A DNA stretch of 64,000 nt from the NCBI GenBank assembly GCA_003151515.1, contig PLXS01000038.1, positions 1-64,000 of the forward strand, in the 5' to 3' direction. The number at the start of each line of letters is the position of its first letter. Position 1 is the stretch's first letter. Position numbers and translations under genes: made by a program. Of the stretch, positions 36,656-43,377 are shown piece by piece. A model generated the notes under the pieces. The model was given only the letters and a program-made list of their open reading frames with translations, made no database searches and was not told where the DNA came from. This DNA is from Opitutaceae bacterium. Lineage in GTDB: Bacteria; Verrucomicrobiota; Verrucomicrobiia; Opitutales; Opitutaceae.

Positions 36656-37588
36656 TCAGCTCGTCTGGCGGCCACCCGCCAGCGGGGCGCTCTCCTTTTC
36701 GCGGAATGCCCGTCCGACGACTTCCTGAATGGTCGCACGGCACATGGACGGGAACTCAATCAGGAGCCTCTCGGTCGCGCCAAACGCGCCTATTGAAAGC
36801 TCGAGAGCGCCAAGCGGCCCCTCGTTCTGGATGAAGCGGTGGTCGCGCAGCCGCGAACGCGGCAGAAACGTCGCGACCTCGCCGTACTTGTTTTCACGCC
36901 CCACGTGCAGCAGGCCGTTCGCCCTTTCCTCGGCGATGAGGACCAGCCCGTGTCCGCCGAGCGCAAGCGCCGCCTCGGGCGCCAATTCATGCTGAAACCA
37001 ACGGCTCTCGTCCGTGGTGGCAGCAGGCCAGTGGGCAACGGCGCACACCCGATCGCCGGGCAACAGCGCGCTCCGAGCAGAGCTTCGGAATTTCACCGGC
37101 AGCGCGTCCAACGCCGGGGGATCCGCTCCATGGTCAGCTTGCGCGCCGGGCGGAATGCCGATGATCCCGCGAAGCAGGAGCTGAAACGCCTCCAGATATA
37201 TCGGCTTCCTGACCGTGTTGAACGCCAGCGTGACGGACCGCGCCCGCGTGCCCTCGGCATATAGGATCCTGAGGGCGCCCGAGAGCAGGATTTCGGCGAG
37301 TTCGAGGCTGATCGTTCCTGAAAAATCGCATCGGGCGACCGCGACGCCGCCGCCCGGGGTGCGCTCGATGCAGGTCCATCCGGCGCCTGTCACGGCCAGC
37401 ACGCTTGGGCCGCTCGCGCATCGGGCGGATTCACACCCGGGGGTGTAGACCAGCAGCTGAGCGGCGCTGCCTTGAAGCGCCCGGCGAAGCGGCGAACGAA
37501 ACGCCTCCGGCGCGTCAGCAGCCTCCCTCAGCCGGCACGGGGGCTGTTGGAGATCGCTCTCGGCTCGATCGGGCGGCGGCATGGTCAT
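36656..37588 (-). CDS. Protein of unknown function, two PH-like domains suspected
   Basis: This 310-residue protein has no motif I can name. By eye it falls into two similar halves, each with a run of short beta-strands then a helix. The first half runs through VLAVTGAGWTCIERT and ends in a helix (YLEAFQLLLRG). The second has GHGLVLIAEER, KYGEVATFLPRSRL, and ends ATIQEVVGRAF. This recalls bacterial PH-like domains, which often target membranes. It overlaps the AAA ATPase gene by ATGA and is 17 bp before dynamin-like GTPase A. Its role is inferred only from place. Confidence 0.6.
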   Translation of the reverse strand: MTMPPPDRAESDLQQPPCRLREAADAPEAFRSPLRRALQGSAAQLLVYTPGCESARCASGPSVLAVTGAGWTCIERTPGGGVAVARCDFSGTISLELAEILLSGALRILYAEGTRARSVTLAFNTVRKPIYLEAFQLLLRGIIGIPPGAQADHGADPPALDALPVKFRSSARSALLPGDRVCAVAHWPAATTDESRWFQHELAPEAALALGGHGLVLIAEERANGLLHVGRENKYGEVATFLPRSRLRDHRFIQNEGPLGALELSIGAFGATERLLIEFPSMCRATIQEVVGRAFREKESAPLAGGRQTS

Positions 37589-38286
37589 GGGGCTGTCAGC
37601 TGGGCCGTGACGCTCGTGATGCGGGCGTGCACAGAGAGCAGGCGCAATCCCGAGGCCTTCCCCAGGTCATACCTGCGGACGCGCAGCTCGTCGACGAGTG
37701 CCGCAAGGGTGCCGGGATGGCCCGCGGCCAGCCGGTGCAAGCGGGTGGACGAAGCCAGGAGTGCGGAGCGGTTGCCGGGATAATACGCGGCCGCGAGGAA
37801 CGCCCTTGTCTCCTGCAGACTGAACGGGGGGACGGTGAGGCGCTCGAAGTGGAACAAAAAGGGCCAGGCGTGTCCGATGGCGAGCGGCTGGGTGGAAGAG
37901 GCGACCAACCACACCGGCTGGCGCGTGAGCATGAACCGCACGAAGTGGGCGACCTTGGGCGGAACTCGCTGCACGCTCTCAAGCGCCAGCGGCCGGCCCA
38001 AGGCGGGCAGTCGAGCGGTAAGCCTGTGGACTCGGGCGGCAAGTCTCAGCCCGTCCGACTCAAGGCCGGCCAACGGCTCAAGGACGCCGAGCAGGTCGCC
38101 AAGACATCGCGATCGGGGCACGACGAGGAAGGGATGGTCCTGCGACAGCTCCCCCAGGAGCCGGCTCTTCCCGACGCCCGGCGGTCCGACCAGGAGCACA
38201 TGGCGCCCGGCGCGGTAGCTGGCTGCAAGGCGGTCCAGCAGGGCCCGCCTGCCGACAAACGGGGGTTCGTGGGTCTGCGTGCTCAC
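37585..38286 (-). CDS. AAA ATPase, ORC/Cdc6-like, small
   Basis: This 233-residue protein has Walker A GPPGVGKS (34-41), a downstream hydrophobic beta-strand with an acidic end consistent with Walker B, and a compact length without a clear extra domain. Similar small AAA proteins act as switches that load or activate partners. The GTG start at 38286 overlaps the stop of the upstream dynamin-like gene (GTGA), and its own stop overlaps the next gene (ATGA), so translation is coupled. Confidence 0.78.
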   Translation of the reverse strand: MSTQTHEPPFVGRRALLDRLAASYRAGRHVLLVGPPGVGKSRLLGELSQDHPFLVVPRSRCLGDLLGVLEPLAGLESDGLRLAARVHRLTARLPALGRPLALESVQRVPPKVAHFVRFMLTRQPVWLVASSTQPLAIGHAWPFLFHFERLTVPPFSLQETRAFLAAAYYPGNRSALLASSTRLHRLAAGHPGTLAALVDELRVRRYDLGKASGLRLLSVHARITSVTAQLTAP

Positions 38287-40265
38287 CGGGCGGGCTGGGA
38301 ACCCCAGTTCCTCAGCAATTCAATGTCCCGCGCCGTCTCCGGCGGCATGGGGCCAGCGGGGGCTGCAGCGCAGGCTCCCGCAGCCTCTTTGAGTCCCGCC
38401 TGGGCATCAAAGTGCGACGCGAGATCGTCCAGATAGCGTCGGCTCCAGCCGACGAGGGCGTGGCCGTAGTGGCGCAAGGCGTCGTCGAGGGCCCTCGAGA
38501 ACCGCGCCCGGAGGTGCCGGCGAAGCGCGGCCCGCCGGGTCGCCGCGGTCGGCCATCGCCGCCACCCTGCCCGCACGCACCCGGCGTCGACGACCGGCGC
38601 GGGATCGAACAGGGGGCGCGACCCCGGCTGGGGGAACGCGAACCCGGGGAGCGCGCGCCCCGCCTCCTCCCGCGCATCCCTGAGCAGCGATTCGAAGCAC
38701 TCGGCGTACAGCGCCGCCGATCGACCCAGCTCCCGGGCCAGCGCAGCCCGCAGCTCGTCCCCGGTCTCGAGGACGGCCAGGGGCGCCGCAGCCGCATCGA
38801 GGGCGCTGCCCGGACGGGGAGCCGCCGAGAACGGCAGGTTGGAGGCGCGCCGACGCGCCTCCTCGATGGCGGCCCGCGCGGCGCCAAGCTGGGCGTGGAC
38901 TTGCGATGCGGACTGTATGGCGACGCATCCGCCGCCACGGCGCGAGAGCGCGGCGGCGACCGCGTCGCGCAGGGCGCCGATCTTGCGCCGAAGCGTTGCG
39001 GCAGCGAGTTCGCGGTGCCGAGACCGGCGCGGCCCCAGGGCCTCGTCCCACCAGTCTTGCGCAAGCGCGGCGTGGCCGGCGGCCACGCTGACCAGGGATA
39101 CGGGGACTTCGCTCCCCAGGGCGCCGGAGAACTGGCTGGCGACGTAGGCGCGCATCTTCTCCCTGTCGGGAGCCACCAGCAGGTCGGCCTTGCTGACGAC
39201 AACCAGCACCTCGGCTCCCCCTTGGGCCAGCGAGCTCGCGACCTCGATGTCCTCCTCGCAAGGAGCGGCCGAGGCATCGATGAGAAGCACTCCCGCGTCG
39301 CATCGGGGCAGGAAGGCGAGGGTCTGCGCCGCGCCCGCAGTTGCAAGCGACCCGAGGCCGGGCGTGTCGACAAAGCAAACGTCGCCCTCCAGGCGCCGCG
39401 AAGGCAGCTCAAGCAGAATTTCGGCGACGTGCCTGCAGTTGCCGGGGTTGCTCTCCTCGGACGCAAACTCGCCGATCGCCGCGGCGTCGATGCGCTCGGG
39501 CCTGCCGGTCGCGAACGAGATCGTCGCCGACGCTGCGCCGCCGCCGACTATGCGAATGGGCACCGCGGTCACGGGGGTGACGCCGGTCGGCAGCACGTCG
39601 GTCGCAAGCAGATGGTTCAGCAGTGAGGACTTGCCGCAGCTCACCCGGCCGACAAACGCGACGGTCCACCAGCTCTTCTCCAGCCGGCCGATGAGATGGC
39701 TTAAGGCCGGGCGGAACTCGACGAAATCGTGCGCCGTGACGATGCGTTCAAGTTCGCGCAGAAGCCGCGCCTCATCCGTTGTCTGGTCCAATCGGGCGAG
39801 CGCTGCGGCGAGGTCGGCGCCGACGCCGACCGCCGCATAGCGTCCAAGCGCGTCCAGGCTGGCGCGGATCTCGGCCTGAATGGCGGCCATGCGGGAGGCG
39901 GTTGCGTCGTCAAGCGCGCCGTAGCCCCTGAGGTATTCCGGGCCGAGTTCCTCGAGCGATACCGCGGCCGCGGTGAGCGAGCTGCGCATGCTCCGCATGG
40001 CGCTGATCTCGGGCGCCCCGATTGGAATCTCGCAAGACTCCAGCGCGGCGCGAATCGTGCGCCGTATGCGGGCAACCTGGGCCGCGATGACCTTGCGCTG
40101 AATTGGCGTGGCGTCGGGCACCACGGGCGCGAACACGGCATCGGCGCCCGCCTCCGCGGGGGCCACGGCACTCAGGCCGTCGCCAAGGAGCCGGTCGATA
40201 TACTTGAGCCCGGCCAGGAGCGCGTTCCGGTGGTAGTCGTTGAGGTTGGGCGCCGTGCTGGACAT
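38283..40265 (-). CDS. Dynamin-like GTPase B of the five-gene operon
   Basis: This 660-residue protein has an N-terminal helical region of about 200 residues, then a dynamin-like GTPase domain: P-loop GRVSCGKS (206-213), a switch Thr in PVTAVPI, DTPGLGS (300-306), SKAD (358-361). A helical C-terminal region ends in a hydrophilic tail. The extra N-terminal domain sets it apart from GTPase A of the same operon, so the two probably form a heteromeric pair. The start at ATG 40265 is 7 bp after the phosphoesterase stop. Confidence 0.8.
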   Translation of the reverse strand: MSSTAPNLNDYHRNALLAGLKYIDRLLGDGLSAVAPAEAGADAVFAPVVPDATPIQRKVIAAQVARIRRTIRAALESCEIPIGAPEISAMRSMRSSLTAAAVSLEELGPEYLRGYGALDDATASRMAAIQAEIRASLDALGRYAAVGVGADLAAALARLDQTTDEARLLRELERIVTAHDFVEFRPALSHLIGRLEKSWWTVAFVGRVSCGKSSLLNHLLATDVLPTGVTPVTAVPIRIVGGGAASATISFATGRPERIDAAAIGEFASEESNPGNCRHVAEILLELPSRRLEGDVCFVDTPGLGSLATAGAAQTLAFLPRCDAGVLLIDASAAPCEEDIEVASSLAQGGAEVLVVVSKADLLVAPDREKMRAYVASQFSGALGSEVPVSLVSVAAGHAALAQDWWDEALGPRRSRHRELAAATLRRKIGALRDAVAAALSRRGGGCVAIQSASQVHAQLGAARAAIEEARRRASNLPFSAAPRPGSALDAAAAPLAVLETGDELRAALARELGRSAALYAECFESLLRDAREEAGRALPGFAFPQPGSRPLFDPAPVVDAGCVRAGWRRWPTAATRRAALRRHLRARFSRALDDALRHYGHALVGWSRRYLDDLASHFDAQAGLKEAAGACAAAPAGPMPPETARDIELLRNWGSQPAR

Positions 40266-40272
40266 GGCGATG

Positions 40273-40998
40273 CTAGGTGCTTGCCGGCGTGGGATCGCCG
40301 CCGGTCGCCAGAATCCGCGCCAGCTTGAGCGCTGCCTCCGGCGGCGCGCACGCGGCGAGATCGGCGGCGGTTGACTGGAAGTCATAGTCCACGCGCCGAA
40401 GCTCCACCCCCCCCTCGCGCCACAGGGCATAGCAGGAACGCGGATCGCCATGCTTCGGCTGTCCGACGCTGCCGGGATTGACGATGGTGGTGCGGCCGAT
40501 CCGGAGGGCGAAGGGCAGGTGCGTATGCCCTGCCAGGAGGAAGTCGGGCCACCCCGCGAGCGCGCATTCGCGCTCCCATTGCCTGATGTCGTCCGGAGCA
40601 ACGTACCCGTACAGAGGATCGGACGGGGCCGCATGGCACATAAAGATGACGGCGCCTTCGAACGGCTGCGTGGCGCGGATCGGCAGGCGCGCGAGGTAGT
40701 CCTTTGCGTCGGGGCTGATGCGCCCCTCCGTGTAGCGCTGCATGTCAAAGGCCAGCGCTCGGTAGGCTGCCGAGCATCGGGGGCTTTCGCCGCAGCCGAG
40801 CGCCCGGTCGTGGTTGCCCTGCACGACCCATCCGGCGGTTGCATTCTCGCGCACCCAATCTATGCAGGCCGTCGGGTGCGGGCCGTAGTTGACGATGTCA
40901 CCCAGGCAGGCGACGGCATCCACCCGCGGCTCGGCAGCGATCACGGCCCGCAGCGCGGGCCAGTTGGCGTGAATGTCCGAGAGGATAAGTAAGCTCAT
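40273..40998 (-). CDS. Calcineurin-type metallophosphoesterase, first gene of the dynamin operon
   Basis: This 241-residue enzyme has the full set of metal-binding motifs: SDIHAN (D8, H10), GDIVNYG, GNHD, a His in MCHAAPS, and GHTHLPF. It is close to the YfcE/ApaH-like group with a wide range of possible substrates (cyclic nucleotides, dinucleotides, phosphodiesters). A crcB-motif riboswitch ends 31 nt before its ATG at 40998. A downstream leader segment can pair with the riboswitch 3' strand and would cover the start codon. It leads the five-gene operon. Confidence 0.9.
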   Translation of the reverse strand: MSLLILSDIHANWPALRAVIAAEPRVDAVACLGDIVNYGPHPTACIDWVRENATAGWVVQGNHDRALGCGESPRCSAAYRALAFDMQRYTEGRISPDAKDYLARLPIRATQPFEGAVIFMCHAAPSDPLYGYVAPDDIRQWERECALAGWPDFLLAGHTHLPFALRIGRTTIVNPGSVGQPKHGDPRSCYALWREGGVELRRVDYDFQSTAADLAACAPPEAALKLARILATGGDPTPAST

Positions 40999-41040
40999 GA
41001 CTCGCTACCGATTCAGTGAAGCACTGCTTGGTAGGAGTCA
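40996..41040 (-). promoter_or_regulatory. Putative expression platform of the second fluoride riboswitch
   Basis: On the minus strand the aptamer's 3' strand ATGACTCCTACC (41041-41030) can pair with GGTAGCGAGTCAT (41009-40997), with one bulged base. This pairing would cover the start codon of the phosphoesterase at 40998. When fluoride holds the 3' strand in the aptamer pseudoknot, the start would be free. This is inferred from complementarity only. Confidence 0.55.
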
Positions 41041-41089
41041 TCATCCCGGAGGCGTTTTCCCGCATTAGCGGTGGGCAAACTCCATTGCC
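41030..41089 (-). promoter_or_regulatory. Fluoride (crcB-motif) riboswitch aptamer, upstream of the dynamin operon
   Basis: The minus strand from 41089 reads GGCAAUGGAGUUUGCC. This is a stem (GGCAA/UUGCC) whose loop GGAGU can pair with ACUCC in the downstream GAUGAUGACUCCUACC. That stem-loop and the 3' U(G/A)AUGANUCCUAC strand are the hallmarks of the crcB (fluoride) aptamer. In between lie a CCGC/GCGG stem and an AAAACGC segment that stands where AACCGC is usual. The pseudoknot pairing is intact. It lies 103 nt after the universal-stress gene and 31 nt before the phosphoesterase gene. Confidence 0.78.
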
Positions 41090-41191
41090 GCTGCGTAAAT
41101 CTAGCCGGTAATCGTTGAGTGTAAAGTTCGGGGTGGCAGAATTGTGCTGTCGAGTGGAGGACTTGCTCGAGGCCGAGGGCGCTATGAGCCG

Positions 41192-41638
41192 TTAGGCCTG
41201 CTTGGCCGGGATTCCCGACTTCACAACTAGGACGCTGCAATGGGCATGATCCGCGATCCGGTCGGCGGTATCGCCGAGCAGCCTGCCCCACAGGGCAGAA
41301 TGGTCGCTGTGGCCTACGACAATGAGGTCATAGTTGCCTTCGGCGGCGAACTTGATGATCGCCTTGGCCGGATGGCCGCGGGCGACCTCGCAGCGTATGG
41401 ATTGGCCTAGTTGCTTGGCAATCTCGGCTACCTCCTTCTGGCGCTCGGCAAAATACTCATCAGCCGCCTCGGACTCCTCCTCATACTCCCCAGGCAGGTC
41501 CGAATGCCGCGGAAGCGGCTCGCGAACCCAGAGCGCGGTAACATGCCCTTCGAATCTGTCAGCCAGCTCGGCGCCGGCGGAGAGAGCGGCCTTGCCGCCC
41601 TTTGAACCATCGTAACCTACGAGGATTTGCTTGTACAT
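41192..41638 (-). CDS. Universal stress protein (UspA family)
   Basis: This 148-residue protein has the Usp pattern: KQILVGYDGSKGGKAAL at the start and the nucleotide-binding GHSDHSALWGRLLGDTADRI with a C-terminal CSVLVVK. UspA proteins are common members of fluoride-riboswitch operons. It is the last gene of the three-gene operon after the first riboswitch, 20 bp after the antiporter stop. Its exact role is not known. Confidence 0.92.
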   Translation of the reverse strand: MYKQILVGYDGSKGGKAALSAGAELADRFEGHVTALWVREPLPRHSDLPGEYEEESEAADEYFAERQKEVAEIAKQLGQSIRCEVARGHPAKAIIKFAAEGNYDLIVVGHSDHSALWGRLLGDTADRIADHAHCSVLVVKSGIPAKQA

Positions 41639-43290: not shown

Positions 43291-43377
43291 TCAATGGCCG
43301 GCGATTCGGCTCTGGCAAGCCCCGCATTGGACGAGCGCCGGGCGCGCTTCGGGTTCGGTCCGCAGTGAGGGAGTCAT
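43291..43377 (-). CDS. 28-codon leader reading frame between riboswitch and DUF190 gene
   Basis: From ATG at 43377 the minus strand encodes a 28-residue peptide with a CGAC (CxxC) pair and stop at 43291. It is preceded by AGGAA 12 nt upstream, which lies in one arm of the riboswitch expression hairpin. It might be a short translated leader that couples riboswitch state to DUF190 translation, since DUF190 itself starts with GTG and lacks a clear ribosome site. It could be a chance frame. Confidence 0.3.
   Translation of the reverse strand: MTPSLRTEPEARPALVQCGACQSRIAGH

Follow-up and report, generated by a model that had tools for sequence, protein, structure and literature searches.

According to PMC11139923, bacteria resist fluoride by exporting it, by balancing their pH, and by holding spare copies of the enzymes that it inhibits. 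The genes reported with fluoride riboswitches encode exporters, antiporters, pyrophosphatase, HAD proteins, enolase, and formate hydrogen lyase (PMC11139923), and mutS, K+/Cl- transport and formate hydrogen lyase genes were named with the motif in the 2010 paper that described it (PMC2864571). The terms 'dynamin' and 'GTPase' are absent from that paper (PMC2864571) and from the main text of the 2024 review of microbial fluoride resistance (PMC11139923). In the GI3 operon of Enterobacter cloacae FRM (PMC5533749), which its authors think was acquired horizontally, a riboswitch leads an island with an exporter, UspA, enolase and pyrophosphatase, an arrangement shared with the loci presented here. 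They differ in their further genes, as no dynamin, AAA or calcineurin-like phosphoesterase is named for GI3 in the relevant sections of PMC5533749.

Several bacterial dynamin-like proteins (DLPs) are also related to the proteins of this locus. Mycobacterial IniA (PMC6715688), a stress-induced DLP, is, among solved structures, the closest relative of the first dynamin described below. Membrane cutting by IniA has been seen in vitro, and a role in keeping the plasma membrane intact under drugs was suggested by the authors. In comparison with the dynamins here, IniA is induced by cell-wall drugs and is not known to be controlled by a riboswitch, and the overall similarity is low. DynA of Bacillus subtilis is likewise a DLP guarding membranes under stress and, when phages attack, apparently helps the membrane to stay intact (PMC8844932). 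The dynamins here differ from it in having only weak scores against the NCBIfam model (36.2 and 29, cut-off 1600). The DLPs of PDB entries 5owv and 5oxf (PMC6104087), taken here to be from C. jejuni, form a pair of two different DLPs, as do those of this locus. In the present case, however, the two are separated by AAA and unknown genes and stand under a fluoride riboswitch.

The stretch of DNA analyzed here (the window, 64 kb in length) contains a fluoride riboswitch aptamer (RF01734) on the minus strand, at positions 41098-41025. The covariance model is matched over its whole length (1-64) with 43.3 bits, above the cut-off of 34 (E 1.1e-8 for the 64-kb window), and this is the only gathering-level RNA match in the window (Rfam). 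As in other members of the family, the aptamer is located in a 5' leader, has the first stem and the pseudoknot, and is associated with predicted ON logic through a mutually exclusive hairpin. The first stem is GGCA/UGCC (41089-41086 paired with 41077-41074), the pseudoknot GGAGU/ACUCC is complete (5/5 pairs), the 3' strand is UGAUGACUCCUACC, and there is one mismatched pair in P2. There are two differences from the known family: the window copy leads to dynamin-like GTPases, and the Opitutia copies (Opitutia being a class of Verrucomicrobiota) have an extra small hairpin, in the window CCGC-UAAU-GCGG at 41071-41060 (minus strand), between the first stem and the AAC linker. The computation shows a genuine fluoride riboswitch, an ordinary member of its family; that it binds fluoride and changes expression is inferred. 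In the Opitutia aptamers inspected by eye (the window copy, L010 at 9662-9589, and L001), the letters of the extra hairpin differ from copy to copy.

A promoter-like site, TTTACA-16-TAGATT, is located at 41125-41098 (minus strand), its last base being the first of the aptamer match. It agrees with the consensus at 9/12 positions, and it is the one site found in the consensus scan, compared to a mean of 0.1 in shuffles. The segment CTTTACAC is identical in the leader of the window and in that of G028, a second genome from the window's family; read by eye, the -10 box of G028 is the poorer one. The leader probably begins its own transcript, as suggested by the promoter-like site and the identical segment, an inference from computation.

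The predicted expression platform is an alternative hairpin, AUGACUCCUACC...GGUAG(C)GAGUCAU, at 41041-40997 (minus strand). AUGACUCCUACC contains the pseudoknot strand and is paired with the region just 5' of the start codon and the first two bases of that codon. The hairpin occupies the A and the U of the codon (40998-40996), and the G lies just outside. Because the same 3' aptamer strand is used in both, the hairpin and the pseudoknot are mutually exclusive, by computation only. Folded alone, the 45-nt hairpin has an energy of -21.4 kcal/mol. With its 3' flank the value is -24.2 kcal/mol, compared to a mean of -13.2 for 500 mononucleotide shuffles, 0.2% of which are as low; the equivalent segment of G028 has -21.3 kcal/mol (0.8% of shuffles as low). 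The G028 hairpin has lost one pair relative to the window, and no compensatory change is found between the two Opitutia sequences. Since a search of 40900-41300 gave no intrinsic terminator, control is likelier at the level of translation. The translational switch is supported by the folding and by its retention, with one mismatch, in G028; it is computed only and remains an inference.

In the proposed mechanism, an ON-type switch with its own promoter would lead into a five-gene operon. Without fluoride, the aptamer 3' strand would block translation of the phosphoesterase gene by pairing with the region of its ribosome-binding site and start codon. With fluoride and Mg2+, the pseudoknot would form, the hairpin would open, and the tightly packed operon would be made. 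The first gene after the switch is that of the phosphoesterase, and the dynamins would be under its control only if the operon is one transcript, which is a caveat for the explanation favored below. Fluoride control of the operon is well supported by the sequence; induction by fluoride itself is inferred, without experiment.

The operon encodes, in order, a metallophosphoesterase, dynamin 1, an AAA_16 ATPase, an unknown protein and dynamin 2, all on the minus strand and separated by short gaps or overlapping. The calcineurin-like metallophosphoesterase (40998-40273; Pfam Metallophos_2, 3.4e-21; best PDB relative 3rqz) is near YfcE, and it is filed only as Metallophos_2 since it falls below the NCBIfam yfcE cut-off (51.6 compared to 56.25). 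Dynamin-like GTPase 1 (660 aa, 40265-38283) has a Dynamin_N match of 4e-19 on the long open reading frame (ORF). The P-loop ATPase (37585-38286) overlaps the end of dynamin 1 and is just recognized as AAA_16 (9.4e-8, 33.2 bits, cut-off 32.6). The reading frame that follows (310 aa, 37588-36656) is of unknown family, with no Pfam, NCBIfam, PADLOC or PDB-sequence match at the thresholds used. Dynamin-like GTPase 2 (553 aa, 36638-34977) has a Dynamin_N match of 4.1e-18 on the long ORF and matches chain C of 5owv with E 5.9e-18. This gene order is shown by computation.

Upstream of the operon, on the same strand, are the genes of a DUF190 protein (43263-42889; Pfam 6.2e-39), a cation/proton antiporter of the Na_H_Exchanger family (42870-41659; 2.8e-39) and a universal stress protein, UspA (41638-41192; 1e-31). 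The best NCBIfam match of the antiporter is the CPA2 family, under its cut-off (103.9 compared to 238.3). This group is headed by a second fluoride aptamer at 43493-43406 (minus strand), below the cut-off with 26.4 bits (E 2.8e-4 when 5 kb are searched and 4.8e-5 for the genome) and with 4/5 pseudoknot pairs. After it, in 43377-43263 (minus strand), a hairpin UUCCUGUGAA/UUCACAGGAA covers an AGGA box, and a 28-codon ORF (ATG at 43377) is in frame with the GTG start of DUF190, a TGA stopping the ORF before it. A third fluoride aptamer of the window genome precedes crcB and has the best score of the genome, 46.2 bits. Behind this riboswitch (L001, 1480-770, minus strand), crcB is followed by a DUF190 frame that matches profile positions 4-40 only, as if the frame changes.

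The original prediction, made from the letters of the window, had proposed a crcB-motif fluoride riboswitch. The covariance search with RF01734 upholds this, together with the pseudoknot, the 3' strand described above, and the stem, given there as GGCAA/UUGCC. The proposed span of 41089-41030 held in part, the model match being longer at both ends. A downstream complementary segment over the start codon is present, covering all but its G, and the ligand switch on translation is supported by the folding and by G028, in the absence of an experiment. The proposed dynamin/AAA/phosphoesterase operon also held, with the start of dynamin 1 at 40265 and not at the upstream end of the long ORF. The aptamer at 43493-43406 had been missed.

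Both dynamins are above the Pfam cut-off of 27 for Dynamin_N (69.7 bits for dynamin 1 and 66.4 bits for dynamin 2). In a genome-wide search, the operon genes have 74 and 70 bits, and the two further matches, weak and partial at 23-24 bits, come from frames of 458 and 435 residues and may possibly be other GTPases. As there is no other strong Dynamin_N gene in the genome, no evident housekeeping dynamin exists of which the dynamins of the window could be spares. The nearest solved structures to dynamin 1 are IniA and the GTP-binding protein 5owv; IniA is both its best Foldseek match and its best PDB sequence relative, and the best PDB relative of dynamin 2 by sequence is 5owv. The AlphaFold model of dynamin 1 is of modest quality (pLDDT 68.6, pTM 0.44), and its full fold is not established. 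With this model, the only one searched with Foldseek, IniA, BDLP and 5owv/5oxf top the list with TM-scores of 0.27-0.41. The closest relatives are membrane-active DLPs (IniA, BDLP, 5owv/5oxf), with the fold evidence limited to dynamin 1 and its modest model. No strongly hydrophobic segment stands out in the two window dynamins (best 19-residue means of 1.35 and 1.52). An anti-phage reading was also considered and rejected, the only PADLOC scores being weak and LeoA-like.

The arrangement recurs in G028. Here the genes of CrcB, DUF190, antiporter, UspA and enolase are followed by a fluoride riboswitch (45.1 bits), which leads to genes for a metallophosphoesterase, a dynamin and an AAA-like protein, and then to an MFS gene. 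The identities to the window proteins are 59% for the phosphoesterase, 56% for dynamin 1 and 60% for the AAA protein, the last of which has only 24.4 bits in G028 (below the 32.6 that Pfam requires). A search for a second dynamin in G028 was negative, and a weak aptamer match of 19.7 bits lies before its crcB. The leader around the aptamer and the hairpin is conserved between the two genomes, as shown by their comparison.

The operon is rare and sporadic around the window, as shown in the family and phylum samples. Of 252 genomes of the family, two have a full-length dynamin 1 and one more has a partial match; the full-length gene is absent from all 12 other genomes of the same genus that were searched. 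At E 1e-30, only the window's own genome has it among the 387 of the phylum sample. A contig profile search gave no match from one sequence and three loci from two sequences, one of them G028 again. In three genomes related to that of the window, four loci were checked (two are one and the same gene), and no fluoride riboswitch lies within about 1.5 kb of their dynamins.

Dynamins behind fluoride riboswitches are also found in Acidobacteria. Two contigs (L012 and L013) encode a dynamin about 45% identical over 437 residues, and in both a fluoride riboswitch (45.6 and 43.2 bits) leads through an unknown gene and an AAA gene to the dynamin. L012 has three riboswitches. All of the first four dynamin 1 relatives examined (window, G028, L012 and L013) are in riboswitch-led units. 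Homology between the unknown protein of the window and the unknown first gene of the Acidobacteria unit is unsupported (E 0.056).

A search of 396 Acidobacteria genomes with a four-sequence alignment (E 1e-25) gave 43 dynamin matches in 37 genomes, 36 of which have a fluoride riboswitch (over the cut-off in 34). A riboswitch on the contig and strand of the dynamin precedes 36 of the 43 matches (two of the aptamers score under the Rfam cut-off), and the distance to the dynamin match is at most 1.5 kb in 30/43 and at most 200 bases in 27/43. The seven others are in G759 (two genes), G819:C35, G924, G858, G861 and G672. The G759 dynamins are a few kb from a riboswitch cluster on the opposite strand that includes enolase, crcB and DUF190, that of G858 is preceded by DUF190 and enolase up to the contig start, that of G861 has riboswitches roughly 2.3 kb downstream, and that of G672 starts at a contig edge; nothing fluoride-linked was seen near those of G819:C35 and G924. 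Among the neighbors in 40 fetched loci (tblastn), enolase, crcB, DUF190, antiporter, UspA and HAD genes are found in many, not all. The phosphoesterase was not seen by tblastn in these 40 loci, some of which are cut by contig ends.

The four-sequence profile was built from riboswitch-linked dynamins, and a whole-family control with PF00350 was therefore used, in 119 Acidobacteria genomes that are a subset of the 396. The search gave 39 rows, which were reduced to 34 genes by dropping 5 second segments. Matches above 60 bits are referred to as strong, a line set after a gap from 72.7 to 53.1 bits had been seen. In the 6 kb upstream, 21 of the 25 strong genes have a same-strand riboswitch (one aptamer below the cut-off), and none of the 9 weak ones does. 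The four strong genes without one comprise three in tandem in G686 and one at a contig edge. Five of the weak matches have two segments (44-53 bits), and the other four are partial (30-32 bits) and may possibly be other GTPases. Conversely, 21 of the 63 fluoride riboswitches in these genomes lead to a strong dynamin. Riboswitches are borne by 18 of the 19 genomes with a strong dynamin, compared to 23 of the 100 others (Fisher p 3e-9). As the genomes are related and thus not independent, the p values overstate the significance; what counts is the effect size. The genome at the center of the draw, G615, was chosen as a carrier of the trait, and without it the count is 19/23. In 17 of the 19 strong-dynamin genomes, there is no Dynamin_N match at E 1e-6 beyond the riboswitch-linked or contig-edge copies. 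The association is shown by these computations. The claim that a fluoride riboswitch stands before a dynamin operon is supported by the covariance model, the arrangement in G028, and this association.

On plasmids, a tblastn search with dynamin 1 matched 6 of 72,556 records, three of them from Burkholderia. In two of these (L024 and L106), a riboswitch (50.9 and 50.7 bits) is followed by a hypothetical gene and the dynamin, in islands that contain DUF190, pyrophosphatase, MutS, enolase and other genes, with four riboswitches each. The phosphoesterase is not among the listed genes of the two islands. The dynamin of the third Burkholderia plasmid is the same as the first. Hydrogenase/NADH-dehydrogenase-like genes are located beside DUF190 in both islands, where MutS and pyrophosphatase genes are present in the plural. 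In Lichenicola, a riboswitch leads a crcB-UspA pair, from which the dynamin gene diverges without having its own riboswitch. The Lysinibacillus and Anabaena records, and one of the two Pseudomonas records obtained with dynamin 2 as query, show no riboswitch within about 6 kb or in the stretches fetched. Tandem dynamin sets without a riboswitch in the stretches searched are found on Lysinibacillus, Pseudomonas and Anabaena plasmids and in G686:C105. Three tandem sets of three dynamins (L097, which is G686:C105, L026 and L104), likewise without a fluoride riboswitch in the searched stretches, make a useful outgroup. The broader idea that any dynamin adjoins fluoride riboswitches is rejected on the weak Acidobacteria matches (0/9), the plasmid dynamins, and the relatives of the window genome.

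The GTPase motifs are largely intact in the fluoride-linked set (G1 in 47, G3 in 48 and G4-like in 44 of 48 ORFs, with loose patterns). A tree was built from 68 GTPase domains, with three ORFs excluded (a duplicate, a fragment and one poorly aligned). The riboswitch label changes 8 times on this tree, compared to 20.8 times in shuffles, none of 500 being as low. A split separates the fluoride-linked rows, together with five unlinked ones, from the rest. This deep split has weak support (60/92), and a single origin is therefore not shown.

The best explanation, held with moderate confidence, is that the fluoride riboswitch drives a DLP operon and that the DLPs remodel or protect membranes. They would do so when HF enters the cell and collapses the proton gradient, in analogy to IniA under drug stress and DynA under phage stress. 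The membrane function of the fluoride-linked DLPs rests on this analogy, both membrane binding and remodeling being inferred. The DLPs of the window would belong to a wider, fluoride-linked set that occurs in Opitutia, Acidobacteria and Burkholderia, often in islands with crcB, DUF190, antiporter, UspA, enolase or pyrophosphatase, and the set would also adjoin fluoride genes on an Acetobacteraceae plasmid. A bolder reading, for which the balance of evidence is slightly favorable, is that related DLPs in Verrucomicrobiota (Opitutia), Acidobacteria and Proteobacteria are a dedicated, riboswitch-controlled determinant of fluoride resistance, its membrane-remodeling arm. The best explanation is slightly weakened by the two additional weak Dynamin_N matches in the genome and by the 4 of 9 control matches that are perhaps not dynamins.

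Two alternatives are unlikely. In the first, the riboswitch and the operon are real, and the dynamins are fluoride-sensitive GTPases over-made to offset their inhibition, like enolase and pyrophosphatase. These two enzymes share the islands and are known fluoride targets (PMC11139923, PMC5533749). Fluoride-metal complexes mimic phosphate in GTPases, which is a further point for this alternative. The original prediction had given such mimicry by AlFx and BeFx as its rationale; it is not the favored explanation here, and no evidence bearing on AlFx or BeFx was obtained. Over-making explains duplicated essential enzymes, however, and the window genome has no other strong dynamin; nor do 17 of the 19 strong-dynamin genomes in Acidobacteria have unlinked Dynamin_N copies, contig-edge genes aside. 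In the second, the dynamins, with the phosphoesterase or AAA protein, deal directly with fluoride damage by some other means: they might sense metal-fluoride complexes, for instance, or clear phospho-enzymes or nucleotides that have stalled. The repeated occurrence of phosphatases near fluoride riboswitches (PMC11139923) and the leading place of the phosphoesterase gene in both Opitutia operons speak for it. The phosphoesterase is not a constant partner, however, being unseen in the 40 Acidobacteria loci, some cut by contig ends, and among the listed genes of the two Burkholderia islands.

A third alternative is very unlikely. Here the dynamins are passengers, a defense or stress cassette that landed in fluoride islands, and the riboswitch serves their neighbors. 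The islands do look mobile, being plasmid-borne in Burkholderia and sporadic in the family of the window, and there are the weak LeoA-like PADLOC scores. On the other hand, the riboswitch is within 200 bases of 27 of the 43 Acidobacteria dynamin matches, which leaves little room for another gene, and tandem dynamin sets elsewhere (Lysinibacillus, Pseudomonas and Anabaena plasmids and G686:C105) have no riboswitch in the stretches searched. Finally, a chance match or decayed relic, for which the single P2 mismatch could speak, is all but excluded by the aptamer score of 43.3 bits (E 1.1e-8) and by the leader kept around aptamer and hairpin in G028, the two grounds on which chance was rejected.

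The riboswitch family itself is known, and the new part is what it controls and the recurrence across phyla. No paper joining fluoride riboswitches and dynamins was found in the literature searched, in agreement with the original prediction, which had known of none before dynamin-like GTPases; a mention in the gene lists of the 2012 paper that identified the ligand (Baker 2012) is not excluded. If the explanation is true, there would be a membrane arm of the fluoride response that is absent from the accounts found, with dynamins under direct riboswitch control. The recurrent link suggests that membranes may also be a fluoride target or a line of defense, and fluoride becomes a clear candidate for what induces one group of bacterial dynamins.

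The pseudoknot was compared, by a fixed-register reading, in 41 aptamers, 40 that lead to dynamins and the one before the antiporter group of the window. The reading of the G760 aptamer is out of register because its Rfam match is partial. The pseudoknot is fully complementary, with G-U pairs allowed, in 35 of the 41, and four variants are changed on both sides: GGAAU/AUUCC, GGCGU/ACGCC, GGCAU/AUGCC and GAAGU/ACUUC.
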